Below, one piece after another: positions 11,691-55,540 of a DNA stretch of 64,000 nucleotides; position 1 is the stretch's first letter, and every line of letters starts with the position of its first letter. A program made the translations under genes and the position numbers. The stretch lies in contig NC_092676.1 of the NCBI RefSeq assembly GCF_964355755.1, positions 16,350,288 to 16,414,287 on the forward strand, given 5' to 3'. Source of the DNA: Antedon mediterranea. Taxonomy: Eukaryota; Echinodermata; Crinoidea; Comatulida; Antedonidae. The notes below the pieces were generated by a model that was given only the letters and a program-made list of their open reading frames with translations, was not told the DNA's origin and made no database searches.

Positions 11691-12040
11691 ATAATAGGTA
11701 TAGAAATAAATACAAAAATCATTAGTAATTCAAACAGATGATAACAAAATTTCAATTGCATACATATATATTACTGTTTTGATATGATGTTTGTTTGAAA
11801 TAAAAGTGGGATGATGAAAAATCATGCTAAATTTCTGTCGAGAAACGCATGGCACGGAATATAGTCAGGCCATCCACAGCATGAATTGTTTAAGTTGTTT
11901 TTGTACATATGTTTTTTGTGTAATAACCTATCGTATTTTGTACTTTAATTGTAATATAACGCTCTAAATTAATTTGAATATACCAAGAACCTGAAACATA
12001 CCATTACACCATTGTGTAGGCAGAATCAGGTAAGTTAAAA
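11691..12040. other. non-coding lead-in to the hairpin-unit array
   Basis: No gene is visible. The stretch around 11945-12000 (TAATATAACGCTCTAAATTAA and a nearby ACATACCATTA) matches 21570-21615 upstream of hairpin A3, so it belongs to the repeated unit described under the array. Confidence 0.5.
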
Positions 12041-12046
12041 AAAAGA

Positions 12047-12177
12047 AGGTTTCCTCGTCTTTAAGCAGTTACTTCGTTACCCAATGCTCTTCTCCAAACG
12101 CTATGTAAATGACGTTAGGAAGAACAGCACAACAATACCCGTAGGAACGAAGTACTGTGAGATACTAACAAACCACT
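12047..12177. other. fold-back hairpin, class A copy 1
   Basis: GCAGTTACTTCGTT at 12065 pairs with AACGAAGTACTGT ending at 12158. An inner stem pairs CTTCTCCAAACG with CGTTAGGAAGAA around a short loop. Flanking GGTTT and AAACC extend it weakly. Copies A2 and A3 are nearly identical across the whole hairpin. It resembles a long pre-miRNA or hairpin-siRNA precursor, but a palindromic transposon relic is equally possible. Confidence 0.6.
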
Positions 12178-12395
12178 AATGACAGAGTCTTGATGACCAT
12201 CTTTTGTTTTTTTTTTAATATTTCTTGAAATATAGTCATCACTTGATTTCTAAATTCTTTATTTCACCCTAAACAATATCATGCGCTTTTAGATTGAAGA
12301 GCAGAGAGCAATACAATTTACAGTAAAAAACAATGATTAATTGGTAAATATCTTGAAATAAGGTCAAAATCATTCAAGCGTCGCTGGAGTTAGCT

Positions 12396-12447
12396 CCGTG
12401 GCGTTAGTTAAGATAGGGTATATAGCTGTCGTTAATAAGCGCCACGG
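12396..12447. other. small GC-rich hairpin
   Basis: CCGTGGCG at 12396 pairs with CGCCACGG ending at 12447, and TTAGTTAA/TTAATAA extends the stem. It stands out from the AT-rich surroundings. Function is unknown. Confidence 0.4.
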
Positions 12448-12879
12448 ACGTAATGATTTGCGTTAATAACGCCATAAACCATTTGGAATTGTGTTTGTGT
12501 GTGTTGACTTTTATTCATTTTTAAACTTTTTTTTATTATTTCAATGGCTTTGATATTTTTTTGTTTGAGATGTGTTTCCTATGTTAGTTTTTGCCTTTTT
12601 ATAGTGTTTTTCTTTAAAATTCAGACATAGCCTATAAAGACATAGCCTATTATGTGCGGCCCTTCAATAATAAGCAGACGTGGTTTCGAAGGAGATACGT
12701 AAAAGTACGCGAAAAAATTAATTGCATTAAAATATAGATACTGATTGACCAGTCCCTGGTGGCCACTCACTAATTAATATTCAACATTTAAAAAAATAGC
12801 CAAACCACGCGAAATTAAAAATTAGGACATTCTTTATTGTTATCCGTTAATAATATATTTCTTCATAATCTGTTATTTT

Positions 12880-13184
12880 GTCTCCGTAGTCGTTGAAATA
12901 CATGATGAGTCTGATAACTAAATTATCTTTGTGTGATCTTCCTAAGACACCCCTAGTCTGTGACATCTTTCCAGCTACCACTCGTCCACTTTTCAAAGTC
13001 AACATCTAACAGATGTCTTTCATTTTTTTTTGCCGGTTTTCCCACATCCTTAACTTATATTAATTTTGTGTTTTTTTAGTTTATTTTGTATTTACTGTTT
13101 GTTTGAGGGTCCCTAATGATCAGCTGATGCTGGATGGACCACCCTCATAAAATATTGTTGAAATAAATAAATAAAATAAAATAT
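12880..13184 (+). mobile_element. LINE 3'-end fragment with AAAT-type tail
   Basis: The segment 13095-13184 ends in AAATAAATAAATAAAA after GCTGATGCTGGATGGACC. This is the form of a CR1/Jockey-like LINE 3' end with a simple-repeat tail. No coding frame remains. Its tail abuts the last recognisable exon of the minus-strand gene at 13185-14550. The 5' boundary is uncertain. Confidence 0.4.
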
Positions 13185-14550
13185 TGGATGTCTCGTTCTC
13201 GCCTCATTGACAGTCTATGAAGGCGTCTTTTGTTCTGCCTTTCTTCCTCTTCTAGTTTGTACTATTAAAAAAAAGAAGCTTAAATTAGAGGCTTTTTATA
13301 AATAAAATAAGTCCACTGCCATGTTGACAATCACCATCTCCACTCCACCAACCAACCCTTGCTTATAATATTATATTATTTTACCTGGTGGAATTTATTA
13401 GCATGTTTAATTCCTTGCATTAGCGAATTATTACGATGACGAGGATGGTTATTTTGAATATTGGTGAAGATTGATAGTAACTCTCTGTCAACACCAGGAC
13501 CAAACGATAATTTCAGCTCATTCATGAGTCCGTATCTTGTCGGTGGTCCGTATCGACGTCGTTGGACAGATAACTGACTGTCTACTGACATTTCCGATGC
13601 AATTCTGAAAAAAGAAGGAATATTTATCATCAACAATGATAGTTGAAGATGATTTGTGATTTGATCATTGACAAAAATTAATACTTTATGGCGATGATAA
13701 TAATGATGATGATGATGATTATTATTATAATGATGAGATAAATTAATTGTGATTATTACGGGTGATAATTACTTTTTAATCTGACTGGTTAGAATATGTG
13801 CCTCGGCAGTCCAATCATGGTCACCTTTTGAAAAATAAAGTATGAATATATTAACAACTTTGATTCATTTTGGAAATATCTATAAATAAATGACAACAAT
13901 AAACAATATCTTAAATAAACGGTTCCTCTTACCTTCTTGGACCATCTTTACGTCGTCGTCCTCTACGTCCGACCCTAAACTGTTCCTGTCGTCAGAGTTA
14001 TCCTCTGGAATAATGAGCTCATCGTCATTTGAATGGATCTTCAGCAATGAGCTGATCGTCATTGTCAGCAATCAGTTCAGCAATGGGCTGATCATCGTTG
14101 TCAGCAATCAGTTCAGCAATGGTTCTCATCGACTTCTTCAGTGATCGTCGAAGGGTGGCCGAACGGGATTTAGACTTCCTTTTCTTGTCTTCCCCATCCT
14201 TAGTACCCGACAGCTTATCTGTGTCAATTGTCAACGCAGTTACTTAATCATCATCTGCTGTCGTGTTCTTAGATTCAGAACTTGGCCACTACCGCCGGGA
14301 CATTTGGAGGATCAACACTACTTCCGTCTTGCAAATTAAATTCTTCGGGATTATCAGCAACGAATTTCTCAACTGAGTTGCGTTGACATAAGTTCAAAAG
14401 ATTACCCATATGATTTGTAATTAATATAGATACAATACGAGATATGAAATCAATACAAATTTCAGAAAAGGTTTCGTTGATATGGCGAATGCGTTCTTTA
14501 TCGTAGTAACATCGACGCGCGTACAAGGCATCCATGCAAACAAAGCGCAA
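13185..14550 (-). CDS. unrecognised multi-exon gene, possibly damaged
   Basis: I do not recognise the family. Four blocks join with matching splice phases: an upstream block ending at 13933 (KMVQEG, donor GTAAGAG), 13824-13773, 13604-13385 (acceptor after a T-run and CAG, containing RRRYGPPTRYGLMNEL and SFGPGVDRELLSIF), and 13261 to about 13185 (charged, KLEEEERQNKRRLHRL). The most upstream frame starts with ATG at 14550, next to CpG-rich sequence that could be a promoter. The middle part is acidic with a repeated ELIADNDDQ motif. Two problems remain. The frame breaks near 14027, where one extra A in a run would explain it, and the join between 14275 and 14234 is unresolved. The 3' end runs into a LINE tail. 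It may be a real gene with an assembly error, or a recent pseudogene. Confidence 0.45.
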
Positions 14551-15480
14551 CCGCTATGTGTGACGACGCCGCCCGCTACGTGTGACGCAAGATGGGGAAG
14601 GAAGGGGGTGGATGTCTTAACTATCGATTACAATATACTGTTATATTATATCCATACAAACAAAATAATTAATTTCATTTGAAACAATTTTCATTCAACA
14701 AAAAGTATTACTATGAAAATAATTAAATTGATTATTAAATCATTATAATAATGTGTACTTTCAAATAATACAGAAAAAAAGTTATTACACAATTTAAAAA
14801 ACATAAAACAAAAATAATTATTCTGTACTAAAACCGTGATATTTTTGTTCATCTACCATTAATTTGGATTTACATTCAAAATAACACACAGTACAATACA
14901 GTGCACTACTGTATAAAGAAACTATTGAATTCAAATTTTATTTATCAATTTGATTTGACAAAAGTATGCAAAACCTTTTCACACATATTTAATATAAATT
15001 AGCAAACTATTTCTACACAACTAAAATTTGTGAAAGCAGTGACAATAATTATAACACAATATAAGTTTATGTTATATTATTTGATAATTTGAGTTAATTT
15101 TAATATATTTTATAATAATATTAATTATTAATAATAATATGTCTCTCTTGTTATTTAGATGATATTATTTCGATTAACATATATTTTTAAACAAATCATA
15201 CATATTCATGAGCTTTTACTGGGTCACATGTATTGATAATACAATCCAACATTGAACAATTTGATCTAAAAATAACATGAGAAATTGTCAATACGGTATT
15301 AGAATACTGAAGTCAATAGACCCGACGAATCATTTATATATTTTAACTGCATGATACTACAAGCCGTTACGGTGACTCTGAAGAATAGATGAAATACATA
15401 TGCTATCCTGATCATATTCAATATTTCAACAGTAAACATTAATGTCAATTGTGTAACAGGATCCTATCTTATTAATCTAT
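14551..15480. other. gene-free stretch; array unit 2 downstream block
   Basis: 14551-14620 is relatively CpG-rich (GACGCGCG, GACGACGCCGCCCGC) and may hold the promoter of the minus-strand gene. 14640-15030 is AT-rich with nothing recognisable. 15040-15480 carries the array landmarks GCAGTGACAATAATTAT, CATACATATTCATG, GATCTAAAAATAAC and TGTAACAGGATCCTAT, but no hairpin is visible in this copy. Confidence 0.5.
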
Positions 15481-16570
15481 ATATAAATTTACGTAATGGC
15501 AAAATTCGGTAAATCATGCGTTACTTCTAGAATGTTTACTCGATGGTATATAAAGTTGGTTCGTACTTTCGGTACAGATTTTAACCACCTGATGTAACCC
15601 TGTTTACTAATAAAATTGAGTTAGATAATTAGTTATTGACAATTAAAACGAATTTAGTTCATAATGTTGAAGACAGACCGATTTTATTAAAAAAATACTA
15701 TTTTGATAGATTTAATATATGTTTAGGCCTATACAAATGTATTGATTTGTGATGATGAATGGAACATTCCAAATTATTTGGTTTAACCATAGAGGTATAG
15801 GCTTACCTCTATAATTTAACACAAGTAGGTAAATGTATGGGCCCTTTGGAGAATAAACATAAATAGTATTGCAATGCTGTACAATACTGCAAATAGGTAT
15901 TAACAACTTTTGATCGCCATTTGAATCGCAAATTTCTTACTGTGAGTGTTGGTACTGTTAGATATAATATAAACAAATATACAAATAAACTTTATTACTG
16001 TGAGTGTGGGTTAGATTATAAACATATAATATACAAATAAATAAACTTTATTATTGTATTACTGACAGTTGCTTCTCAACGTTTGTATTAATTAATAATT
16101 AAAAAATATATAAACGTCGTAGTGGTGTATCGTTACATGTACTTTACTATTTCAATCGACTATGACAGTGAGAGTTTTAACAAAGTAATAAATCGCAAAT
16201 GTCTTACTGTATTTAGTGGTATATTATTTATAAAACATTACAAAAATATTTCGTTACTGAGTGGATAAGAATATATTTAAAAATTGTTCCTCTTTGTACC
16301 TATCCTCTTCCCCATCCATCAACCCCAATGTTACATACAAAACACAAAATTACGTCCAAATAAAAAAAATTGAAAATTGAAGTTTCTCTCTCGGAAGTAA
16401 TTCCCAGGGTGCTAATTTTGGTTTACTACATAAATCATTGTGTCTATTTACTCGTTTTTCTGTAAACGACAATGTATTTTATAGTCCTCGGTACGTACAT
16501 TTGAAATCTCAAGTTTTTTTCTCACTAGAATTACTGTGTATTCGAAAACCATCTAGTATATGTAACTAAT
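15480..16570 (+). repeat. element A, copy 1 (within the array)
   Basis: This non-coding segment recurs at 33255-34260 (reverse), 53860-54045 (partial) and 58260-59530. Landmarks in order are CAAAATTCGGTAAATC, TTACTTCTAGAAT, TATATAAAGTTGG, CTTTCGGTA, TTGAGTTAGATAATTAG, ATACTATTTTGATAGATTTA, TGGAACATTCC, TTACTGTATTTAGTGG, GGAAGTAATTCCC and AATTACTGTGTATTCG. TATATAAAG has the form of a TATA box and GGAACATTCC is a palindromic heat-shock-element-like word; whether either acts is unknown. No conserved open frame is present. Confidence 0.7.
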
Positions 16571-16875
16571 CATATCACGTATCGCGTGTTAAATGTTTTT
16601 ATTCGATACAACAAGCTAATTATTCCTATGTTTACATTGGAGTAATACTTTGAAAACTTCAAAAGGCCTTTGCCATATTTTTCCTGTCTTGGTTGTCTTT
16701 GGCCTATACCATCCCTGCATCATTTTGGCAGCTGCAAACAGAATCCCCGTTGAAAAATAAAAGGAAGGAAGGTTTCCTTTGAACTTTATAATTTGATACC
16801 AAAATTCTGACAACATATAATGCCATTCAACTATGTGTGTAGACATACATAATCCTGTATTGAAAAAAAGGTAAA
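16571..16875. other. array unit 3 upstream block
   Basis: Non-coding. The segment 16650-16765 (AAAAGGCCTTTGCC, then ACAGAATCCCCGTT) matches 18298-18400 ahead of hairpin B1, which ties this unit to the next one. Confidence 0.5.
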
Positions 16876-16998
16876 TTCTTCGTCTTTTAGCAGTTACTTC
16901 GTTACCCAATGCTCTTCTCCAAACGCTATGTAGATAACGTTAGGAAGAACAGCACAATATCCGTAAGGAACGAAGTACTGTGCAACATTAACGAAGAA
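16876..16998. other. fold-back hairpin, class A copy 2
   Basis: TTCTTCG at 16876 pairs with CGAAGAA ending at 16998. Inside, GCAGTTACTTCGTT pairs with AACGAAGTACTGT, and CTTCTCCAAACG with CGTTAGGAAGAA. Sequence and structure match copies A1 and A3. Confidence 0.65.
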
Positions 16999-18422
16999 AC
17001 CACCAACGAAAGAAGGCTACTGCCCAATTTACGCGACATTGATCCTCTTATTTAAACACAATGAATAATAAAGTTACAACAAAGCAGTGACAATAATTAT
17101 TAATTATCAAACAATACATTTATTTTACATTATTTTATTAATTAAGTAGGTGTTTATACATTTTACTATATTATTTTGTATCAAAACATGTCTCTGGCAA
17201 TTTAGATGATATGATTTCAATGATTAACACTTACATGTTTAAACAAATTATACATATTCATGATCTAATAAGGATCAAACCATTGTGATCTAAAAATAAC
17301 ATCAGAAATTTCCAATACGGATAAGAATACTCTAGCCAATGATATGATACGCATGCGTGACAAAAAGAGTCGAATTGTTAATACACATTCATTTCCATTA
17401 TTTTAACCGTGTAACAGGATCCTATTTTGTATGAATCTATAGGCCTATATATATAAATTTCATAAGGCATCGGAGTATATTGTGGGGAATAGTATATACA
17501 ATTACATCGAGACAACTGATAATAAGACCTTTCGTTTGAAATCGAGTGAAACCCTGATAGCCGAGTTGCTGAGTAAGATGGCAAGACTGTATAACTGTGC
17601 GCTATTTGTGTCCCGTTAGGACCCTGATAGATGTCTGCCCATGTTGCAAGTTGTCTAAAAAAACGTCTTCCTTCTTAAGCCGAAACGGCCCACTGTGTCG
17701 CGGTTGGTATTATATTTGAATAAACGCCCGAAACACCTCCCCAATAACACATCACTGAAAATAATAATCGCCCATCCACATTTATACGCACAATATTGTA
17801 TTATATTTAGTTATAATTATACTATTTGTAGTAGAATTCATCGGACTGTTATCTAAAATTTACCAAGCATTTGTTATTCTTTTTTACCACTTTTCATATT
17901 ATCTACTAGTGGATTTTTTTTAATTATAAATGTTAGCATATTATTAAAAGTAAAACATCAAAGTATCCCTCGAATACGCACCTCCCTCAAATTAACTCCG
18001 CCTCCCCACCCCCACCCTATAAGTGCCCCACCAAACAATAACAACTATACTTTAAAATGTTAATATCAAAAGACACTGTGAAACAGGTTATATAGGTTTA
18101 ATTAGTTTTACGAATATCAAGCATTTCAATCATGCAACCGGCCGAAAACGTCCAGACCAAAACGCCATTCTAAAACGCCATTCTAAAAATTTTTAGCCGA
18201 GTCATTATCATTCCGAGAACCATCGTCTACATGCGCATGTTAAATTTGGATATTCGATACAAAACATTGATTATGGTTACATTGGTGTAATAATTTTAAA
18301 AGGCCTAAGTTTGCCTTATTTGTCCTGTCTCTGCATCCTTTTTGGCAGGACAAAGATTTTGCTGCGAACAGAATCCCCGTTTAAAAAAAGGAAGTTTTCC
18401 TTGTTTGTTTTTTTTTTTGTCT
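16999..18422. other. array units 3-4, non-coding
   Basis: 17087-17420 carries the downstream landmarks (GCAGTGACAATAATTATT, TACATATTCATG, GATCTAAAAATAACATCAG, TACGCATGCG, TGTAACAGGATCCTAT). 17600-18200 contains GC-richer words such as AAACGCCCGAAACACC and a duplicated AAAACGCCATTCT, which I cannot assign. 18200-18400 repeats the unit 3 upstream block. Confidence 0.5.
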
Positions 18423-18535
18423 CCTGACACATCGTTATGACGACGTACCTTAAAGAACACTGGTTTCGTTACGCTATCGTCATATCGTAACGAAACAACC
18501 TTTATTTAAGGTACGTTTCATAACGATGTGTCAGG
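18423..18535. other. fold-back hairpin, class B copy 1
   Basis: This is a strong 113-nt hairpin. CCTGACACATCGTTATGA at the left end pairs with TCATAACGATGTGTCAGG at the right end, GTACCTTAAA pairs with TTTAAGGTAC, and GTTTCGTTACG pairs with CGTAACGAAAC around a 12-nt loop. It occupies the position taken by class A hairpins in other units. Confidence 0.75.
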
Positions 18536-20180
18536 CACTAAAGTGATACTCGGTGATTTTATTTATATACAAGAAATATTAAATTCACCGCAAAACAGTG
18601 ACAGTATTTTCAAAATCTCTTGTTGGCCAGTTACTTTCAATGTTTTGATTAAGCATTATATTTTGTAATTAGCTATCATATTTTTTTTAAATTATATAAT
18701 ACTTTAAATATTGTTTCGATTGAAATTAACTTTTATGCAAATCATACATATTCATGCCTTTTTGCCGGGTCACTGGTAATTTAAAGATCACACTTTAACA
18801 TAAACAATGTGAGCGAAAAATAAAAAATAATACTAGGGAAATTTCAATACAGGCTCTCATACGCATGCTTAAATAACTACGTCATCATGATTTAGAGACT
18901 ATTATAAATACTCCAAGTATTATTATTATTATTTTGACATAATGTTACTTCCGTGCGTACTAATGGTCTTTTCTGTCTGTATACTATCGACACGATAACT
19001 CTTAATTTAGTAATGGTATTATTTGTAATCAAAGTAAAACTTCTGATTTACGATAAATGTTAGGCTTATGATATCAATTTGAATGATTTTTAAAAATGGT
19101 AACAAGATAACACACCTCGTAATAAAAACATAGAAAAGGCCAAATCAAATAACAACATGCAGCGCGTAAAAAAGAAACAAATGGATCAAGAGTGACCAAG
19201 ACAATTAATGAGAAATTACGTAGGCCTATACCGTCATGGAAGTAGTATTTTATTAAGTTAGATCAAGACAAAACCTTGCGCTGTACTAACTGCATTATGG
19301 TATGTATGTATGTTTCCAACGTGTTTGATCTGGGGTATTTAGATGTTTCACAACATTATATAAAACCAGGATATTTTGCCTTGCATTGCAATGTGCTGAA
19401 CGATACCAATCTAAACACATAATCCATTATGCATGTGATCGCCTCCCGAATCTTGGCTTCTTTAATCCTAAAAAATAGCACAAATAGAATTCAAAGTATT
19501 ACAGATAGTAAACTTTAACATCAATAGTGTCACGTGTCTTGATTTTGTTCATACTTATTGCGATATTGCTATGAGCAAGGCTACAACCAACAATAACAAA
19601 CGAAGAATACAAAGAGTTAGACACGAATCTGTAGAATATTTGATTACGAATAAAATATCTCTTACAACAGTAAAGCCATCCGCAATAGCATCTTAGTAAT
19701 TAACGCCATTATAGAGAAACTAGAAATAAGTAGAGAGTTATTTTTTCTGGAGAACTAATATTGAATATAGGTGAAAGAAATTAAGATACAGTTAACATAA
19801 GTTAAGACTTAACAATAATAATAATAATAACAAAATATACGTTAAGACAAAATAAGGAACTTAAAATAAGTTTAAATATACTGAATATCGTTTGCTAAAT
19901 TAATTGAGAAACAATATAACAGATTTTAGATGAATCAAAATGTAGAAATCAGAATTGTTGGTGAAAAATTGTAAAATAAAAAAAAAATTGGAATAGTTAT
20001 GATAATGTAAAATTAATCTTCACTTTGTTAGGTTTTGGTTTGTAAGAAATACGAAATAAAATAATTAAAAATAGATTATAATATCATTGTAATGTTAAAA
20101 ATAAGTAATTTATAAAAAAAAACGTTTCGTAAAGTTATTAAGCTTTAATATTAGGCCTAAGTAAGATTTTTTTTTTATAA

Positions 20181-20228
<48 letters not shown>

Positions 20229-20570
20229 TCTGAAGTCGGAGATGCTACCTCATCGTAGTAGACTGGAGTCAACATCATTGGTGAAACGGTACCAGTGATG
20301 GCTAACAGCATCACGCTAGATTGATTTGAAACAAGTCTGTATCTTGCATGTTGTACTTGTGTATGTAGCTTACCAATTTCCTTTACTTATTCTTGTTTTT
20401 TTCATTTATTTATTTTTTCATTATTTATTTATTTATTTTTTGACTAGGCTACTCTTGAAATGTTTTATTTTTATATACTTTTTGATTGTTTTTTTCTGGT
20501 GGAACTAGCCTCAAAGCCTCCCTGCTTATTTAAGTTTCTCCAGAATATTAAAGTGCATTCTACTTTCTTA
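18536..20570. other. array unit 4 downstream block and gene-free DNA
   Basis: The landmarks ACAGTGACAGTATT, CATACATATTCATG (18743) and CATACGCATGC are present. 18935-18985 (ATAATGTTACTTCCGTGCG) matches 23085-23130. From 19500 to 20560 the sequence is AT-rich without a recognisable gene. A run of about 38 A residues lies at 20184-20222. Confidence 0.5.
19265..19375 (+). mobile_element. SINE fragment (tail part)
   Basis: CTTGCGCTGTACTAACTGCATTATGG and the following TATGTTTCCAACGTGTTTGATC match the body of the tRNA-derived SINE at 46535-46815. The tRNA-like head is missing here. Confidence 0.55.
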
Positions 20571-21477
20571 GGGTCTGTTTCTGCTGAAAAAATCAAAATA
20601 ATCGATTTTTTCCAGTCACCGCAAACCACAAAAATAATCGCGTTGCAATTGAAAATTGCTACGACTTTAATCGGTTATTCAGGTAATCGGTTTTTAAAAT
20701 CACGTCATCATTCCCCCACAGCGCAGTTCAAGTTATGAAAGGCCGATGAGAGTTGGTTTGTTTACATCCTATCGCTGCCTAAAACTCTCACATGTAGGAT
20801 TAAAAATTACTCTTACGTAAAGCTTTATTATTTCTAAAATAAACATCTAGGCCTACTACCGTACCACATACAACAGAATAATGATGTTATATTAATAAGG
20901 ACACGTCGGCGAAAAAAGTTCGTTTCGCCGTTCGTTGGTTCTACCTTCGGCCTGCTAGGCCTAGAGGCTATTATATTTCTACCGAAACAAGTCAACAGAC
21001 AACAGGCCTACTAACAAATGACATGTAAAACATCGTTAGCCTGGACTGGTGGTATGTAACGGGTGTACTTGTAACACAGAATCCTGGAGTCTCTCGGTAT
21101 AATTCTCCCCCACAAAATAATAAAAATCAAATGTTTAACATTTGATTTTTATTCGGTCTACATCGCGATCGTGGTTTTGCTGATCGTCGTCGATATCGCG
21201 CAAATAAACAGCATGCTTTGTGACGTGAATAAGTTTGTCATACTCTAGAGGTCAAAGTGAGGTCAATAATCGCTATTTGTGTTGCAGCTCAAAACTGCTC
21301 CGCAATAATCGGTTAAAACAAGAAATAATCGATTAAAACACGCAATGGATTGAGTGTTTTTAATCGGTTATTTTTAATCGGTTATTTTATTTTGCGCCGT
21401 TTCTGCTGCCCAAAAATAATCGATTAAAAAAATAAACGGTTAATAATCGATTATTTCTGCTCAGCAGAAACAGGCCC
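20571..21477. mobile_element. PIF/Harbinger-type MITE with AATCGATTA-like subterminal repeats
   Basis: The ends are inverted repeats: GGGTCTGTTTCTGCTGA at 20571 and TCAGCAGAAACAGGCCC ending at 21477. TTA flanks both sides (20568-20570, 21478-21480), the target duplication typical of PIF/Harbinger elements. Near both ends the words AATCGATTA, AATCGGTTA and ATAATCG recur about a dozen times, which would suit clustered transposase-binding sites. No transposase is encoded, so it is non-autonomous. It interrupts array DNA. Confidence 0.8.
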
Positions 21478-21666
21478 TTAAAACTCTCATTTTTGTTATT
21501 CCATAATGATGTATCTTATGAAAATAAATAAATATTTTGTAATTGAAACTTGTAAGCATATTTTGTAATATAACGCTTTAGGCCTAAATTAAGTTGGAGA
21601 TCAAAAAACATACCATTAAATTCAACATAATTACAGAATAAGAGATTTAAAAATGAAAAAGGAGGA

Positions 21667-21796
21667 GGTTTCCTCACCTTTTAGCAGTTACTTCGTTACC
21701 CAATGCTCTTCTCCAAACGCTATGTAAATAACGTTAGGAAGAACAGCACAATACTCGCAACGAACGAAGTACTGTACACATTGTAGCGAAGAAACC
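21667..21796. other. fold-back hairpin, class A copy 3
   Basis: This is the longest class A copy, 130 nt. GGTTTCCTC pairs with GAAGAAACC at the base. GCAGTTACTTCGTT pairs with AACGAAGTACTGT, and CTTCTCCAAACG with CGTTAGGAAGAA near the loop. It is followed by AAACCACCGATGA, a motif similar to those after copies A1 and A2. Confidence 0.65.
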
Positions 21797-22229
21797 ACCG
21801 ATGAGATATTACTATTAAACCTGACAAACACTGATGATCTTATTTAACCGCAATAAATATTAATTTCACAAAAAAGCGGTGACAATAATTATCAAACAAT
21901 AGGCTTATGTTAATTATAATCGCAGATTATATAATAATACACATTTTAATATATTGTATATTTCTTTTATGTCTTTCTGGTCATTTAAATAATTATTTCG
22001 AATAACGTTCATTTTTGAATAATCATACATATTCATGAAATTTAATCGGATCACGTGTAACTAATGATGACATCATCTAACATTGAAAGGAATGAATGAA
22101 CAATGCGATCTAAAAATAATATCAGGAAATTTTAATACTGAATTGATCAAGAATAAGTAAATAGACCACTATGAGCTCTCATGATACGCATGCGTAGATA
22201 AGCAAGCCTTACTTCACCCGATTATTATT
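21797..22229. other. array unit 5 downstream block
   Basis: Non-coding. It contains GCGGTGACAATAATTATC, CATACATATTCATG (22024), GATCACGTGTAAC, GATCTAAAAATAATATCAG and GATACGCATGCGT, in the same order as unit 3. A LINE fragment follows at once. Confidence 0.6.
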
Positions 22230-23045
22230 AGTCATAGTCATAGTCATATAGTCATATATACTTTATTGTCCATTTAAAAAACAGAAATGTGATTTGAAAA
22301 CTGGCAAAATACAAAAATATAAAATACAATTTACAAAAACACGCACAAAAAGTTAAGAGGCTAAAAATTGTTAAAATTATATAAAAATTATTATTATTTA
22401 ATTATATTATATGATTTATTATTATATTGAACTAACGATGATTTAAAGTTTATATAAAAGCATTAAAACTATAAAAATAAACAAAAGCGGTTACATTTTA
22501 CCTTTGTACTCTGGAGTTATATAAGTGTATAGCATTAGGTACAAACGAGCACCTAAACCGTTTTGTTTTGGTATTAAGTGCACGTAGTCTTATGCCAGAA
22601 TTCATGGGAGCAAATTGTTTGTGAAGAGGATGTGTTTCATCATCAATGATACTTTTTACTTTTTTTAACACATTTTCTTTATACAAGGATTCAACATCAG
22701 GTAAGTGCTCTCCTACTAGTCTAATTGCTCTATTTCCTATTCGATTAAGTTTAATTTTATCTTTTTGCATTGTATTACCATAAAAACAAACATTACAAAA
22801 AAGTATTACACTGAGAATTACAGAGTTATAAAACAATTTAAGTATAGTTTTGTCAATTTGTAGGTACTTCATTTTTCTTAAAATAAACATCCTTTGGTTG
22901 GCTTTGCATGTGGCTTTATTTACATTATTTATCCAATTTAGCTTATTGTCAATTATACAACCCAGATATTTGTACTCATTTACTACTTCAATCTCATTTT
23001 CATTTATAATCAGAGGTTCTAAGGGTTCTTTAATTTTCCTAAAAT
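22230..23045 (-). pseudogene. CR1/Rex-like LINE 3' fragment
   Basis: The minus strand encodes the C-terminal part of a reverse transcriptase. 23045-22890 gives NEYKYLGCIIDNKLNW, and 22890-22498 continues with KLNRIGNRAIRLVG and a tail rich in HPLHKQF and FVPNAIHLYN, the usual end of CR1/Rex-type ORF2. The 3' end is a short tandem run of CATAGT-like words near 22230-22250. ATTATTATTA on both sides (22220 and 23065) is a possible target duplication. The 5' part, including the catalytic YADD region, is missing. Confidence 0.75.
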
Positions 23046-23700
23046 TATTAATTAAATTATTAAATTATTATTATTTGTATATTATTACGTTACTTATAAT
23101 GTTATACTTTCGTACGTATGATCTTTTCGGTCTTTAGATTTATTCATAGAGGTTTAATGGTGTATTTGTCAATACAAGTTGAACTAAATTTGAATTTACG
23201 ATATATGTAACATATCAATCTGAAAGGATTATTTTAAAACGTTGCAACAAGAACATACCACCTGAAAATCAAAACAGAGGAAAGCCCAAATCACATAATA
23301 ACCAGGGAAGAGATTCCCTGTAATAAAACAAAATAAATCAACAAAAAATATAAGAAATGCTACTTGACAGTAGGGCCTACTTAATAGCTTGACCATTTAT
23401 GGCCCATGGTTTAGTTTTACACCTAACTCTTCCAAATTAATCAAAGTTGTTCTTTACCGACTTCTAGGACATTTAAAAGAGAACGTTTCATTTCTGTTTG
23501 GAATTCGATTATATCATATTGTATGTACTGTATATTTTTGTATCATCACTACAAGTAAAAAAAGGGTTTCCCTTTTAAATGTTCACACTACTGGTATGAT
23601 CGTAACGGCAAGCGTTCTCTGGTCTCTTAACCACCTGATCGCATTGCGAATATTGATATTGAAACGAAAGAACCCATTTCGAGTCATACAAGACGTGTCA
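23046..23700. other. array unit 5-6 junction, non-coding
   Basis: 23085-23150 resembles 18935-18985 from unit 4. GGGTTTCCCTTTT near 23571 takes the place of the GGTTTCC word that precedes the other hairpins. No gene is seen. Confidence 0.45.
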
Positions 23701-23812
23701 CCTGACAATTCGGAACGGACTGTCATTAACGGAAGACGAGCATCGTTACGGTATCATCATATCGTAACGAAGAGGCCTTACGTTAGAGCATGAGGCGGAA
23801 CCGACAGTCAGG
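23701..23812. other. fold-back hairpin, class B copy 2
   Basis: CCTGAC at 23701 pairs with GTCAGG ending at 23812, with TTCGG/CCGA next to it. TTAACG pairs with CGTTA, and TCGTTACG with CGTAACGA around a 12-nt loop, GTATCATCATAT. Class B copy 1 has the very similar loop CTATCGTCATAT. The stem is less perfect than in copy 1. Confidence 0.6.
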
Positions 23813-24442
23813 CAACCTGAATAACTCTAATAATTTTATTTATGTACATTAAATCTAAAAGTCACAAGTAAACAGTGTCATTAGCTAGTTATAAGTTATA
23901 ACGTTGCAGTTATAAGCAAATTATCCTCGCTTATTTTGATTTTACAACTTATCAATTTCAATAGATACCGGGGGTTATACCTGGTCATTTAAAATAATGT
24001 CAATTGAAATTGATTCTTTTAACAGACCATAAATATTCATGTCGTTTGGATGACGCTATCTAACATTAAATACTACTGTAGGAAGTCAACTACTCACGCT
24101 ATCAGGCATACACATGCGTCATTGTAGACAACTAAAACAAACACCCGATTCTGTAGCTGTCAGTACACTCAGTATGGAAGACAAACAAAAAAGATAATGT
24201 GTTTAGGCTAGACATCACTATGGATTAATGTAAAGAACCTTTCGTTGTTTTGAATATATTTTCTATTTTGACGTTGGTACCTCAAAAACTTATTTCACTC
24301 TTTTTGTTTGTTATATCAAAGGCCGTGTTGTTAATTTACATTTTTATTGTATAAGAATTTAGCTTGATTTTATTTCATAAAACTGTTTTAATTTCTGCAA
24401 CATTTTCAATTATCTGTACAGTACAATTTGAAAAATGTATAT
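23813..24442. other. array unit 6 downstream block, then unique DNA
   Basis: Variants of the landmarks are present (AACAGTGTCATTAGC, CATAAATATTCATG at 24028, CACATGCGT). From about 24200 I see nothing recognisable. Confidence 0.45.
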
Positions 24443-26361: not shown

Positions 26362-26509
26362 ATATTGGAAATATTCTTTTTTTCAAACCAATAATTAGTA
26401 AACTAACCTTGACAGTTTCGCTGTCCTGATCGGACAGCTTCTTCAGACAGCGAAACTGTCAAGGTTAGTTTACTAATTATTGGTTTGAAAAAAAGAATAT
26501 TTCCAATAT
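26362..26509. repeat. perfect 64-bp inverted repeat with 20-nt spacer
   Basis: 26362-26425 and 26446-26509 are exact reverse complements over 64 bases; the spacer is 26426-26445. The arms contain CAAACCAATAATTAGTAAAC and GACAGTTTCGCTGTC. Perfect identity implies a recent origin by fold-back synthesis or active conversion. The spacer and inner arm together form the hammerhead-like core described next. Confidence 0.9.
26415..26446 (-). ncRNA. hammerhead-ribozyme-like core
   Basis: On the minus strand, CTGAAGA (26446-26440) fits the conserved CUGANGA box. After one A, GCTGTCC and GGACAGC form a 7-bp stem II with a 5-nt loop, and GAAAC (26419-26415) fits the GAAA box. Such cores are known from Penelope-like and other retroelements. 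A cleavage site of GUH type is available downstream (GGTT or AGTT), but a normal stem I cannot be drawn because the inverted arm takes its place. Activity is uncertain. Confidence 0.45.
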
Positions 26510-26739
26510 ACTTTATACCTACAAACCAGATGAACATTTTCAATCATGTTAAATACATCCATGTTTGTTTTTTCTCAACAGTTTATGACTCTGAAAAATT
26601 CAGTAGGCCTACACGTAAAGGCATAAGATGAAGAAAAAAATACATTGTGTAACATATTTAATTTAATGTATATATGTTTTATTTCATCAACCCATTTTTA
26701 AGTGTTATTTAGTAGTGTCATGTTTGGTTCAACTTATTT

Positions 26740-27887: not shown

Positions 27888-28130
27888 CCATGTTCAATGT
27901 TGATCCAATAACAGGAGTCCACACTTAAAAAATAGAGTCCTACTGGAATCGTGCAAAATTAAAGTTAGAAAGAATGCGAGGGTGTAAACGGGAATGGCTA
28001 CCGGAATACCTTGACGAATTTATGTGACGAGAAGGATATGGCAAGTCAGGGGAGGAAGCCTTTAATAATATTTTATCTCACATTTCTCAAATAGGTACAG
28101 TATGCTGGACAAATAAGTAAAAAGATTAAA
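27888..28130 (+). pseudogene. ISXO2/Merlin-like transposase C-terminus, inactivated
   Basis: One frame reads VDPITGVHT, stop, KIESYWNRAKLKLERMRGC, then LPEYLDEFM, stop, REGYGKSGEEAFNNIL. The sets VDP-TGVHT, IESYWNR-K and LP-YLDEFM-R are hallmarks of the end of the ISXO2-type DDE transposase domain. Two in-frame stops (TAA near 27927, TGA near 28027) make it inactive. The tandem duplication at 28032 starts within it. Confidence 0.6.
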
Positions 28131-30039
28131 TAAATGGCTATATAAATTAAACAGATTAAGTAAGTTAAAATTGTATATATGTAATATGTTCCTTGAGGCT
28201 TATTAAATAATGTTAAAGTTCTTGAGCCTTATATTTGAATAAAGTTTGAAGAATGTATATCTCGATCTATCGATTTTTTTCTTGTTATTTGTAGAGGCTA
28301 TTTGATTCAACTGTTGAGAAAAAAACAAACATATAAATTAAAACATAAATTGGATATATTTATATAAATTAAAACATAAATTAAATAAGATTAAAATGTA
28401 TATGTATATAAATCTTTTTCTTGATCTTTTCTTGTTATTTGTAGAGGCTACTTGATTTAACTGTTGAGTAAAAAAACAACATTGTTATATAGTGTAAAAA
28501 ACGATATAATTTACAGACACATAATAAAAGCTATAGGCTAACTACAGCAGCAGTTTTTTGTTTTATTTTTCAAACACAGTAAAATACAAAACAATTGGCA
28601 CAATGACGCGAACAATAGAAGCCTCAACAAGCCTCTCACACCCAACTTAACACATTGACTAACACCCCTGTAAATAATAATGGAATAGTCCTATATTCAA
28701 TACATGCCGAAAACTCAGGTTGATCCGTTAATCTTAAGCCTTTTTCATGAAATGGAAGACATCTTATCGATGAAAAACAAATAATTTCGGAGGACAAGTT
28801 ACTTAATTTAAACTTTGGACAGTCTTGTAGACTAAATTTTTACTGTAAAAGTGATTAACCTTAGTAGGCCTACTGTATGATTAAAAATATCATTGTTTGT
28901 TATTGAAAAAGGCTGGCATATATAATTTATAAATAAATATTAACATTTAAATAAAACAATGAATAAATATAAACGAAGCAATTAAAGAGAAATCAATTAA
29001 AATTATGTGTGAATTTAAAAAATCAAATAACTCGAAGGATATGGCAAGTCAGGGGAGGAAGCCTTTAATAATATTTTATCTCACATTTCTCAAATAGGTA
29101 CAGTATGCTGGACAAATAAGTAAAAAGATTAAATAAATGGCTATAAAATTAAACAGATTAAGTAAGTTAAAATTGTATATATGTAATATGTTCCTTGAGG
29201 CTTATTAAATAATGTTAAAGTTCTTGAGCCTTATATTTGAATAAAGTTTGAAGAATGTATATCTCGATCTATCGATTTTTTTCTTGTTATTTGTAGAGGC
29301 TATTTGATTCAACTGTTGAGAAAAAAACAAACATTATATAAATTAAAACATAAATTGGATATATTTATATAAATTAAAACATAAATTAAATAAGATTAAA
29401 ATGTATATGTATATAAATCTTTTTCTTGATCTTTTCTTGTTATTTGTAGAGGCTACTTGATTTAACTGTTGAGTAAAAAAACAACATTGTTATATAGTGT
29501 AAAAAACGATATAATTTACAGACACATAATAAAAGCTATAGGCTAACTACAGCAGCAGTTTTTTGTTTTATTTTTCAAACACAGTAAAATACAAAACAAT
29601 TGGCACAATGACGCGAACAATAGAAGCCTCAACAAGCCTCTCACACCCAACTTAACACATTGACTAACACCCCTGTAAATAATAATGGAATAGTCCTATA
29701 TTCAATACATGCCGAAAACTCAGGTTGATCCGTTAATCTTAAGCCTTTTTCATGAAATGGAAGACATCTTATCGATGAAAAACAAATAATTTCGGAGGAC
29801 AAGTTACTTAATTTAAACTTTGGACAGTCTTGTAGACTAAATTTTTACTGTAAAAGTGATTAACCTTAGTAGGCCTACTGTATGATTAAAAATATCATTG
29901 TTTGTTATTGAAAAAGGCTGGCATATATAATTTATAAATAAATATTAACATTTAAATAAAACAATGAATAAATATAAACGAAGCAATTAAAGAGAAATCA
30001 ATTAAAATTATGTGTGAATTTAAAAAATCAAATAACTCG
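28032..30039. repeat. recent tandem duplication of ~1.0 kb
   Basis: 28032-29034 and 29035-30039 are almost identical, with only a few single-base and short indel differences (for example CATATAAATT against CATTATATAAATT). Both begin AAGGATATGGCAAGTCAGG and end AATCAAATAACTCG. The unit includes the right inverted end of the transposon above. Near-identity argues for a young event, or an assembly duplication of two haplotypes. Confidence 0.9.
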
Positions 30040-46170
<16,131 letters not shown>

Positions 46171-53859: not shown

Positions 53860-54045
53860 TATAGGCCTATACATTAATGTCAGGGCAAAATTCGATAAAT
53901 CGCGCGTTACTTCTAGAATTTTTACTCACTGGTATATAAAGTTGGTTTGTACTTTCGGTACTGATTTTAAACAACTGATGTAACCATGTTTACTAATTAA
54001 ATTGAGTTAGATAATTAGTTATTAACAATTAAAACGAATTTAATA
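53860..54045 (+). repeat. element A, partial copy
   Basis: It matches 15470-15655: CAAAATTCGATAAATCGCGC, ACTTCTAGAAT, TATATAAAGTTGG, CTTTCGGTACTGATTTTAA and TTGAGTTAGATAATTAG. It then runs straight into the 60-bp minisatellite. Confidence 0.75.
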
Positions 54046-55540
54046 ACACAGTAAAGTGGTGCCCATCACAATTAAATGGTGCCTCAGTGAACTTTTATTG
54101 AATAAAAATAGTTAAGTGGTGCTCATCACAGTTAAATGGTGCCTCAGTTAACTTTTATTTAACAAACATAGTTAAGTGGTGCTCATCACAGTTAAATGGT
54201 GCCTCAGGTAACTTTATCTATTAAACACAGTAAAGTGGTGCTCATCATAGTTAAATGGTGCCTCAGTTAACTTTTATTTAATGAACATAGTAAAGTGGTG
54301 CTCATAACAGTTAAATGGTGCCTCAGTTAACTTTTATTTAATGAACACAGTAAAGTGGTGCTCATCACAGTTAAATGGTGCCTCAGGTAACTTTTATTTT
54401 AATGAACACAGTAAAGTGGTGCCCATCACAGTTAAATGGTGCCTCAGTTAACTTTTATTTAATGAACATAGTAAAGTGGTGCTCATCACAGTTAAATGAA
54501 CACAGTAAAGTGGTGCTCATAACAGTTAAATGAACACAGTAAAGTGGTGCTCATAACAGTTAAATGGTGCCTCAGTTAACTTTTATTTAATGAACACAGT
54601 AAAGTGGTGCTCATCATAGTTAAATGGTGCCTCAGTTAACTTTTATTTAATGAACACAGTAAAGTGGTGCTCATCACAGTTAAATGGTGCCTCGGTTAAC
54701 TTTATCTATTAAACACAGTAAAGTGGTGCTCATCACAGTTAAATGGTACCTCAGTTTACTTTTATTTAATGAACACAGTAAAGTGGTGCTCATCACAGTT
54801 AAATGGTGCCTCAGGTAACTTTTATTTATTGAACATAGTAAAGTGGTGCTCATAACAGTTAAATGGTGCCTCGGGTAACTTTATCTAATAAACACAGTAA
54901 AGTGGTGCTCATCACCGTTTAATGGTGCCTCAGTTAACTTTTATTTAATGAACACAGTAAAGTGGTGCTCATAACAGTTAAATGGTGCCTCAGTTAACTT
55001 TTATTTAATGAACACAGTAAAGTGGTGCTCATAACAGTTAAATGGTGCCTCAGGTAACTTTTATTTAATGAACACAGTAAAGTGGTGCTCATCACAGTTA
55101 AATGGTGCCTCAGGTAACTTTATCTAATAAACACAGTAAAGTGGTGCTCGTCACAGTTTAATGGTGCCTCAGGTACGGTAACTTTTATTTAATAAACATA
55201 GTAAAGTGGTGCTCATCACAGTTAAATGGTGTCTCAGGTAACTTAATCTAATAAACACAGTAAAGTGGAGCTCATCACAGTTTAATGAACATAGTAAAGT
55301 GGTGCTCATCACAGTTAAATGGTTCCTCAGTTAACTTTTATTTAATGAACACAGTAAAGTGGTGCTCATAACAGTTAAATGGTGCCTCAGTTAACTTTTA
55401 TTTAATGAACACAGTAAAGTGGTGCTCATAACAGTTAAATGGTGCCTCAGTTAACTTTTATTTAATAAACACAGTAAAGTGGTGCTCATAACAGTTAAAT
55501 GGTGCCTCAGTTAACTTTTATTTAATAAACACAGTGTGTT
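54046..55540. repeat. ~60-bp minisatellite, about 25 copies
   Basis: The unit contains AACACAGTAAAGTGGTGCTC, then ATCACAGTTAAATGGTGCCT and CAGTTAACTTTTATTTAATG. Shortened units lacking the last third occur near 54490-54550 and 55270. GTAAAGTGGTGC and GTTAAATGGTGC are themselves related, so the unit probably arose from a shorter repeat. It begins at the edge of an element A fragment. No coding frame is visible. Confidence 0.95.

Follow-up and report, generated by a model that had tools for sequence, protein, structure and literature searches.

The stretch analysed here, 64,000 nucleotides (nt) of the crinoid Antedon mediterranea (NC_092676.1, positions 16,350,288 to 16,414,287; hereafter the window, numbered from its first letter), contains a tandem array of hairpin-bearing units that most probably represents a family of five paralogous structured noncoding RNA genes. 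The family, of which four genes would be complete, would be encoded on the minus strand behind promoters of the U6 type for RNA polymerase III (Pol III), and would be new to Rfam; judging from the sequence, we give this reading a probability of about 0.83. The five units all have one orientation, and each has a long hairpin, which is of class A at 12.1, 16.9 and 21.7 kb (units A1, A2 and A3) and of class B at 18.4 and 23.7 kb (units B1 and B2). What is observed in the array comprises promoter-like elements with their order and spacing, the absence of an internal T4 from the predicted RNAs, the hairpin folds, and an apex common to both classes.

Core cellular machines, among them U6, 7SK, RNase P, RNase MRP and the Y RNAs, belong to the few RNAs known to arise from type 3 Pol III promoters (a passage in PMC10498592). 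If our reading is true, a new tandem type 3 family would provide an additional RNA-protein system to study, a set of candidate promoters for Pol III in this animal group, and an example of promoter and RNA body evolving apart. It would also offer a way to find such genes from their letters, namely by a fixed spacing between a proximal sequence element (PSE) and a TATA box beside a hairpin and a T-run.

Promoter-like elements and T-runs on the minus strand

When the four complete units are aligned on the minus strand, three common blocks appear: CATGAATATGTATGATTTG with variants (the distal element), TGTCACTGCTTTGTTGTAA with variants (the PSE-like block), and TAAATAA (Table 1). The distal element is the reverse complement of a block, CATACATATTCATG, that an earlier, sequence-only reading of this DNA had picked out and that is found five times in the array, in B2 in the form CATAAATATTCATG; that reading had overlooked the minus strand, as well as the fact that the block is the outermost of several elements (PSE-like block, TATA box and T-run). 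In each of the four complete units, TAAATAA lies 38 nt past the start of the PSE-like block, and the 45 nt aligned there are free of indels; the distance from the distal element to the PSE-like block is 153-170 nt. With +1 placed 29 nt past the first base of TAAATAA, the TATA box lies at -29, the PSE-like block at -67 and the distal element at -220 to -237. It should be noted that +1 was set from the TATA box, and that the independent facts are therefore the spacings; likewise, the PSE was called by position and conservation, not by its match to a known PSE. For type 3 promoters, a passage in PMC3958870 gives the TATA box at about -30, the PSE at about -60 (-67 to -47 in buffalo 7SK) and the distal sequence element (DSE) at about -240, and one in PMC9652321 gives ranges of -40 to -70 for the PSE and -250 to -170 for the DSE.

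In leave-one-out tests of a promoter matrix, in which three units served for training and the fourth was scored, only 4 of 127,912 window positions reached the score of the left-out unit, in all four tests, and the matches were confined to the minus strand. Pairwise identity over the six pairs of complete units (A1 left out) is 0.73-0.85 in the distal element and 0.69-0.80 in the PSE-TATA block, against 0.55-0.61 in shuffles. The corresponding values are 0.58-0.67 for the DSE-PSE spacer (shuffles 0.58-0.63), 0.56-0.70 for the 100 nt upstream of the distal element (0.55-0.59), and 0.41-0.73 for the 22 nt after the TATA box (0.50-0.55). Because the DNA between the distal element and the PSE is near shuffle level while the elements are kept, the distal element and the PSE-TATA block look selected. 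As the units are paralogues, the identity and matrix tests measure retention versus drift and not independent origin. Four of the five distal elements agree with a POU-dimer site (ATGCATATGCAT, as described in a passage of PMC11873960) at 10 of its 12 bases, and six other places in the window match equally well.

These results bear on the explanation that had earlier been put forward as the main alternative, a decayed palindromic transposon that was duplicated in tandem; such an element, or a miniature inverted-repeat transposable element, would have palindromes that survive by chance. The two palindrome classes and the AT-rich flanks would suit such an origin, as would a segment between A3 and B2, downstream of A3 (22240-23064, with a minus-strand open reading frame (ORF) at 22498-23064), which is a likely reverse-transcriptase remnant and has no Pfam match at 0.001. 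However, a transposon is disfavoured because the promoter-like elements are kept at a fixed core spacing amid drift, the spacer being near shuffle level, and because all copies in the window lie within the array, that is, five copies in 64 kb, in one orientation and in one array. In addition, a repeat search of 11.5-25 kb, which may miss indel-bearing copies, listed no inverted repeats framing the units. We regard this explanation as very improbable.

Downstream of the predicted start, the first run of at least four T is a T7 in A2, B1 and B2 and a T5 in A3, and it comes after 147-250 nt, so that none of the four predicted RNAs contains an internal TTTT. Background windows of matching lengths are TTTT-free at frequencies of 0.226, 0.245, 0.224 and 0.104 (product 0.0013), though shuffles of the B1 RNA itself are so at 0.71; among 200,000 random starts, the first T-run lies at least 146 nt away in 2.4% for runs of at least seven and in 10.4% for runs of at least five. 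Right before the T-run, four of the five units have a short self-complementary stretch (GAGGAAACCTTC in A1, GAGGAAACCTC in A3, GGAAAACTTCC in B1 and GGGAAACCC in B2), in place of which A2 has GAAGAATTTACC. Both the A2 fold and the class A consensus predict pairing between the pre-terminator stretch and the 5' part of the RNA, and the B1 and B2 hairpins open at the predicted +1.

A DSE and a PSE are also common to the promoters of small nuclear RNA (snRNA) genes transcribed by Pol II, as stated in a passage of PMC3499247, and the units might accordingly be minus-strand genes of that type, with a PSE and without Pol III. In human, however, it is the TATA box that decides for Pol III over Pol II (passages in PMC3499247 and PMC9652321), and here a TATA box is present at a fixed spacing in all four complete units and a T-run follows each hairpin. 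Genes of the Pol II snRNA type are the least probable of the readings considered here.

Hairpin bodies, strand and common apex

Repeat finding located three class A copies, each 122 nt long, at 12038, 16863 and 21657; the outer two have ungapped identities of 73% and 88% to the middle copy (16863). The gapped alignment contains runs of 14, 21 and 44 consecutive columns that are identical in all three copies; the 21-column run lies in the 5' arm, and the 44-column run takes in part of the loop and the 3' arm. The class B hairpins are at 18423-18535 (B1), where repeat finding located a self-complementary stretch at 18443-18516, and at about 23694-23815 (B2). A BLAST search with the 11.5-25 kb segment as query and the window as target (E up to 1e-3) added B2 at 23743, all unit-to-unit matches having the same orientation, and covariance models run against the window gave 7 matches for class A (E up to 1) and 4 for class B (E up to 5), all on the five known hairpins, on either strand. 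Neither search found a sixth copy in the window. No ORF of at least 120 amino acids recurs among the units. On the plus strand, a stop-to-stop ORF of 139 amino acids (23374-23793) runs across the B2 hairpin and has no equivalent at the other units.

The array is real, and the earlier description of tandem noncoding units around hairpins, with two class B copies and three class A copies, is partly borne out. The slot that had been assigned to the hairpin, 205-240 bp before the block, holds for four of the five units and fails for A1, which has no block within 240 bp and whose matching half lies at about 15.0-15.3 kb.

Outside the apex, the bodies of the two classes show no significant similarity in sequence. 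The class A covariance model matches the plus strand of B1 (27 bits, E 0.0005), which we do not take as homology, because long hairpins gain score on both strands, and local alignments between class A and class B bodies are not significant (p 0.46, 0.058, 0.52 and 0.21; A1 left out). The kinship of A and B therefore rests on the common promoter, slot and apex. The apex motif, ACG-N-YAY-N4-RTR-N-CGT, stands at the tip of all five hairpins and nowhere else in the 64 kb, with 0.02 occurrences expected per shuffled window; its strict form (TAT and ATA) occurs four times versus 0.005 expected. In the predicted folds, the hairpin tips consist of a 3-bp stem and a tetraloop.

Class A is predicted to fold into one long arm and a closing terminal stem. 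Compared with dinucleotide shuffles, the fold z-scores (minus/plus strand) are -5.4/-5.4 for A2, -11.1/-12.4 for B1, -5.8/-2.7 for A3, -3.7/-3.6 for the B2 hairpin and -2.5/-3.7 for A1; the second domain of B2 has no significant fold (z -1.9). The suggestion that the units form a structured noncoding RNA family is well supported. The fold beats shuffles on the minus strand throughout the five hairpins (z -2.5 to -11.1). Among the 48 pairs of class A (three sequences), 38 are invariant, 4 differ by unpaired cells only, 5 show one-sided changes and 1 a two-sided change. Each of the five one-sided changes exchanges G-C with G-U or U-A with U-G, and pairing survives such changes only if the minus strand is the RNA. 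Counts of G-U pairs on the minus versus the plus strand are 10 versus 1 in A2 and 11 versus 2 in A3, and 1 and 1 in B1, 3 and 5 in the B2 hairpin, and 4 and 4 in A1. A plus-strand transcript was considered and rejected, the promoter matrix matches being confined to the minus strand. The plus strand of all four predicted-RNA spans has one or two T-runs of at least four, which lie mostly near the left end of the span and are therefore a weak argument against a plus-strand transcript.

The main functional rival to Pol III genes of this kind is a set of small-RNA precursors, in which Pol III or another polymerase would make the hairpins and Dicer would convert them into microRNAs (miRNAs; class A) or hairpin small interfering RNAs (siRNAs; class B). 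Consistent with this, both class A arms contain long stretches that are identical in all three copies (the 44- and 21-position runs described above), and B1 is predicted to form 48 pairs in one long hairpin; animal miRNA and hairpin-siRNA clusters resemble the array in having tandem long hairpins with conserved arms. The apex of a miRNA hairpin, however, is normally its least constrained part, and the apex here is conserved, common to both classes and ends in a tetraloop. Furthermore, the B1 structure suits the lower stem of B2 poorly, with the loss of 19 of 48 pairs, no Rfam miRNA family matches at gathering score, and the array differs from such clusters in its Pol III-type promoter for each hairpin. 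We therefore consider small-RNA precursors unlikely.

Several results weigh against a family of minus-strand Pol III genes: (i) the units are paralogous, and counts across them are not independent; (ii) the exact octamer is missing in four of the five distal elements, and B2 is also without a POU-dimer core at two mismatches; (iii) the Rfam search gave no known RNA gene in the window with which the PSE-like block could be compared; (iv) the fold energy leaves the strand undecided, z differing little between the strands for A2, B1 and the B2 hairpin, with the minus strand favoured for A3 and the plus strand for A1; (v) the check for compensatory changes that had been proposed gave, for class A, covariation not above shuffles (180 of 500) and, for class B (two sequences), a modest signal of six pairs changing on both sides, reached by 9 of 500 shuffles, with 19 of the 48 B1 pairs unformed in B2; (vi) the apex motif was defined post hoc, from the hairpins themselves; and (vii) the A1 hairpin has been retained despite its broken promoter.

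Table 1. Features of the array (window coordinates; RNA lengths and starts are predictions)
Feature	Position	Strand	Details
Gene A2	16863-17025	-	predicted RNA ~156 nt, +1 about 17025, T7 16869-16863; class A hairpin closed by 5'/3' stem
Promoter core A2	17048-17092	-	PSE-like TGTCACTG... from 17092, TAAATAA 17054-17048
Distal element A2	17239-17264	-	-237
Gene B1	18383-18536	-	predicted RNA ~147 nt; class B hairpin from +1, A-rich linker, GGAA-TTCC short hairpin, T7 18389-18383
Promoter core B1	18559-18603	-	PSE-like from 18603, TATAAATAA box (TAAATAA 18565-18559)
Distal element B1	18733-18758	-	-220; exact octamer ATTTGCAT from 18742, minus strand
Gene A3	21656-21817	-	predicted RNA ~157 nt; class A hairpin, 3' GAGGAAACCTC, T5 21660-21656
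Promoter core A3	21840-21884	-	PSE-like from 21884, TAAATAA 21846-21840
Distal element A3	22014-22039	-	-220
Gene B2	23557-23813	-	predicted RNA ~250 nt; class B hairpin from +1, second domain, GGGAAACCC, T7 23563-23557
Promoter core B2	23836-23880	-	PSE-like TGACACTG... from 23880, TAAATAA 23842-23836
Distal element B2	24018-24043	-	-228; variant CATGAATATTTATGG
Apex motif	A2 16923-16940; also 12098-12115, 18471-18488, 21717-21734, 23748-23765	-	pattern match
A1 hairpin and T8 run, broken unit	12037-12185	-	repeat/BLAST similarity to A copies
DNA splitting A1 hairpin from promoter half, ~2.8 kb	12186-15008		limits approximate
A1 displaced promoter half	15008-15212	-	distal element 15212-15187, PSE-like start 15044, decayed TATA region

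Proposed function and relation to known RNA families

In the mechanism that we propose, POU and other activators on the distal element (-220 to -237) would help SNAPc to bind the PSE-like block (-67), and the TATA box (about -29) would direct a Brf2-type TFIIIB and Pol III. The RNA would start at or slightly before the hairpin and stop at the run of T5-T7, leaving a U-tail for La-type proteins. The resulting RNA of 147-250 nt would then fold into a long hairpin with the conserved apex and form a stable RNA-protein particle or act as a decoy, as the Y, vault and 7SK RNAs do. From the elements and folds described above we infer transcription by Pol III, the participation of these factors, the U-tailed RNA and protein binding at the apex; function as a particle or decoy is the weakest step, to which we would give slightly less than an even chance.

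A search of the whole window with Rfam gave no match at gathering score, the models including 7SK, U6, U6atac, RNase P/MRP and miRNAs, and among 15 weak matches (E up to 10) in 11.4-25 kb none is a known Pol III RNA (Y, vault, 7SK, U6, U6atac, RNase P/MRP). The MIR4387 model scores 30.9 bits on the plus strand of B1 (cut-off 84, E 0.0067), which we read as a long-hairpin effect. A weak match to the HDV-F-prausnitzii ribozyme (20225-20313; 25.9 bits, cut-off 44, E 0.26) directly follows 39 consecutive A and is most likely due to chance. In the five units, on both strands, the best candidates for box A and box B have 2-3 and 2-4 mismatches, respectively, like shuffles of A2, the sole control. 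As the plus-strand text of class A resembles the start of a vault RNA, box A and box B were sought there too, and they are no better than chance. The best matches to the consensus of a Ro-type motif have 4-6 mismatches, the two with 4 being A3 on the minus and B2 on the plus strand. Shuffling A2 300 times, which was the sole control, gave 4 mismatches in 15 cases, 5 in 79 and 6 in 168. Scans of viral contigs gave one match for an 18-nt class A string, to a sequence that by eye is alike only over the 18 letters, and none for a 26-nt class B apex string.

Y RNA and stem-bulge RNA genes are clustered. The array is similar to the Y RNAs and the nematode stem-bulge RNAs in this respect, in the putative type 3 promoters of the predicted small RNAs, and in the terminal stem by the U-tail of class A. 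It differs from them in having no Ro-type motif above chance, no Rfam match, and bodies of 147-250 nt, compared with 84-112 nt for the human Y RNAs, which have type 3 promoters (a passage in PMC10498592). With the vault RNA genes, which are small, paralogous and clustered and have extra upstream elements (as a passage of PMC7058938 describes them), the array shares these traits as a set of probable Pol III genes. The U6 and 7SK genes are alike in the order and spacing of DSE, PSE, TATA box, start and T-run, but the RNA body of the array is unrelated to theirs by Rfam, and the array consists of five tandem paralogues with two distinct bodies.

A further possibility is that the array encodes a member of one of the known Pol III RNA families (Y, vault, 7SK, U6atac, RNase P or MRP) that has diverged past recognition. 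The promoter class is the same, and in class A the 5' and 3' parts form a terminal stem by the U-tail, as in Y RNAs; nevertheless, given the absence of Rfam matches at gathering score or among the 15 weak ones, and of a Ro-type motif, box A or box B above chance, we consider it improbable. Membership in the vault and Y RNAs can be rejected as far as sequence allows, and the other known Pol III RNAs are unsupported. These negative results concern family membership and leave unaffected the claim of a type 3 Pol III mode of operation. A family of this kind was not found in the titles and abstract openings of the open-licence literature, among the matches listed, by which we do not claim its absence from print.

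Tentatively, the family may be modular, in that one U6-type cassette would have been duplicated in tandem and its bodies (A and B) swapped or rebuilt with the apex kept, giving lineage-specific Pol III RNAs that bind one protein by that apex and differ elsewhere. We raise this possibility because a B-like terminator block has persisted in A2 beyond the A body. A2 and B1 have a common block downstream of the terminator (16583-16779 versus 18234-18402, 67% identity), and at 16731-16790, about 100 bp past A2's own terminator, there is a second, B-like terminator block (AAAGGAAACCTTCCTTCC then TTTTATTTTT), which together with its 3' flank matches B1 (93% over 27 nt). Such an arrangement is what one would expect if a cassette of class A had entered a unit of the B type, or vice versa, with the promoter unchanged.

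The broken unit A1 and the neighbourhood

We counted A1 as broken because its hairpin is split from its promoter half and because its promoter core has decayed, a TATA-like TAGAAATA from 15015 lying 29 nt past the start of the PSE-like block instead of 38 nt. By self-BLAST, the A1 hairpin shows homology over 11949-12186, and the promoter half that corresponds to it lies at 15033-15322. The core of the A1 hairpin (12045-12185) is nearly identical to A2 and A3 despite the displaced and decayed promoter, for which recent loss, gene conversion or another promoter are possible explanations. The splitting DNA of about 2.8 kb has no long inverted repeats at its ends (self-search; the longest, of 14 nt, is internal). 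It has minus-strand open stretches at 13379-13768, 14028-14243 and 14278-14553; the longest, 13379-13768, was the only one run against Pfam and has no domain match.

Between B1 and A3, the segment 20572-21471 has TTTCTGCTGA-type inverted ends and repeated AATCGATTA / TAATCGGTTA (by eye; one inverted pair in the repeat search), and is perhaps a non-autonomous transposon. Outside the array, by eye, there are a long palindrome at 26385-26510 and two adjacent, nearly identical segments of about 1 kb at 28020-30040. The segment at 30.9-41.8 kb contains a gene of the GART type, with domains GARS_N, GARS_A and AIRS_C, and reverse transcriptases of long interspersed nuclear elements lie around it. Finally, 61 copies of a 30-bp minisatellite unit occupy 38289-40144, where the plus strand is strongly C-rich and several frames are open, and a tandem satellite with 60-bp/179-bp periods occupies 54038-55535.

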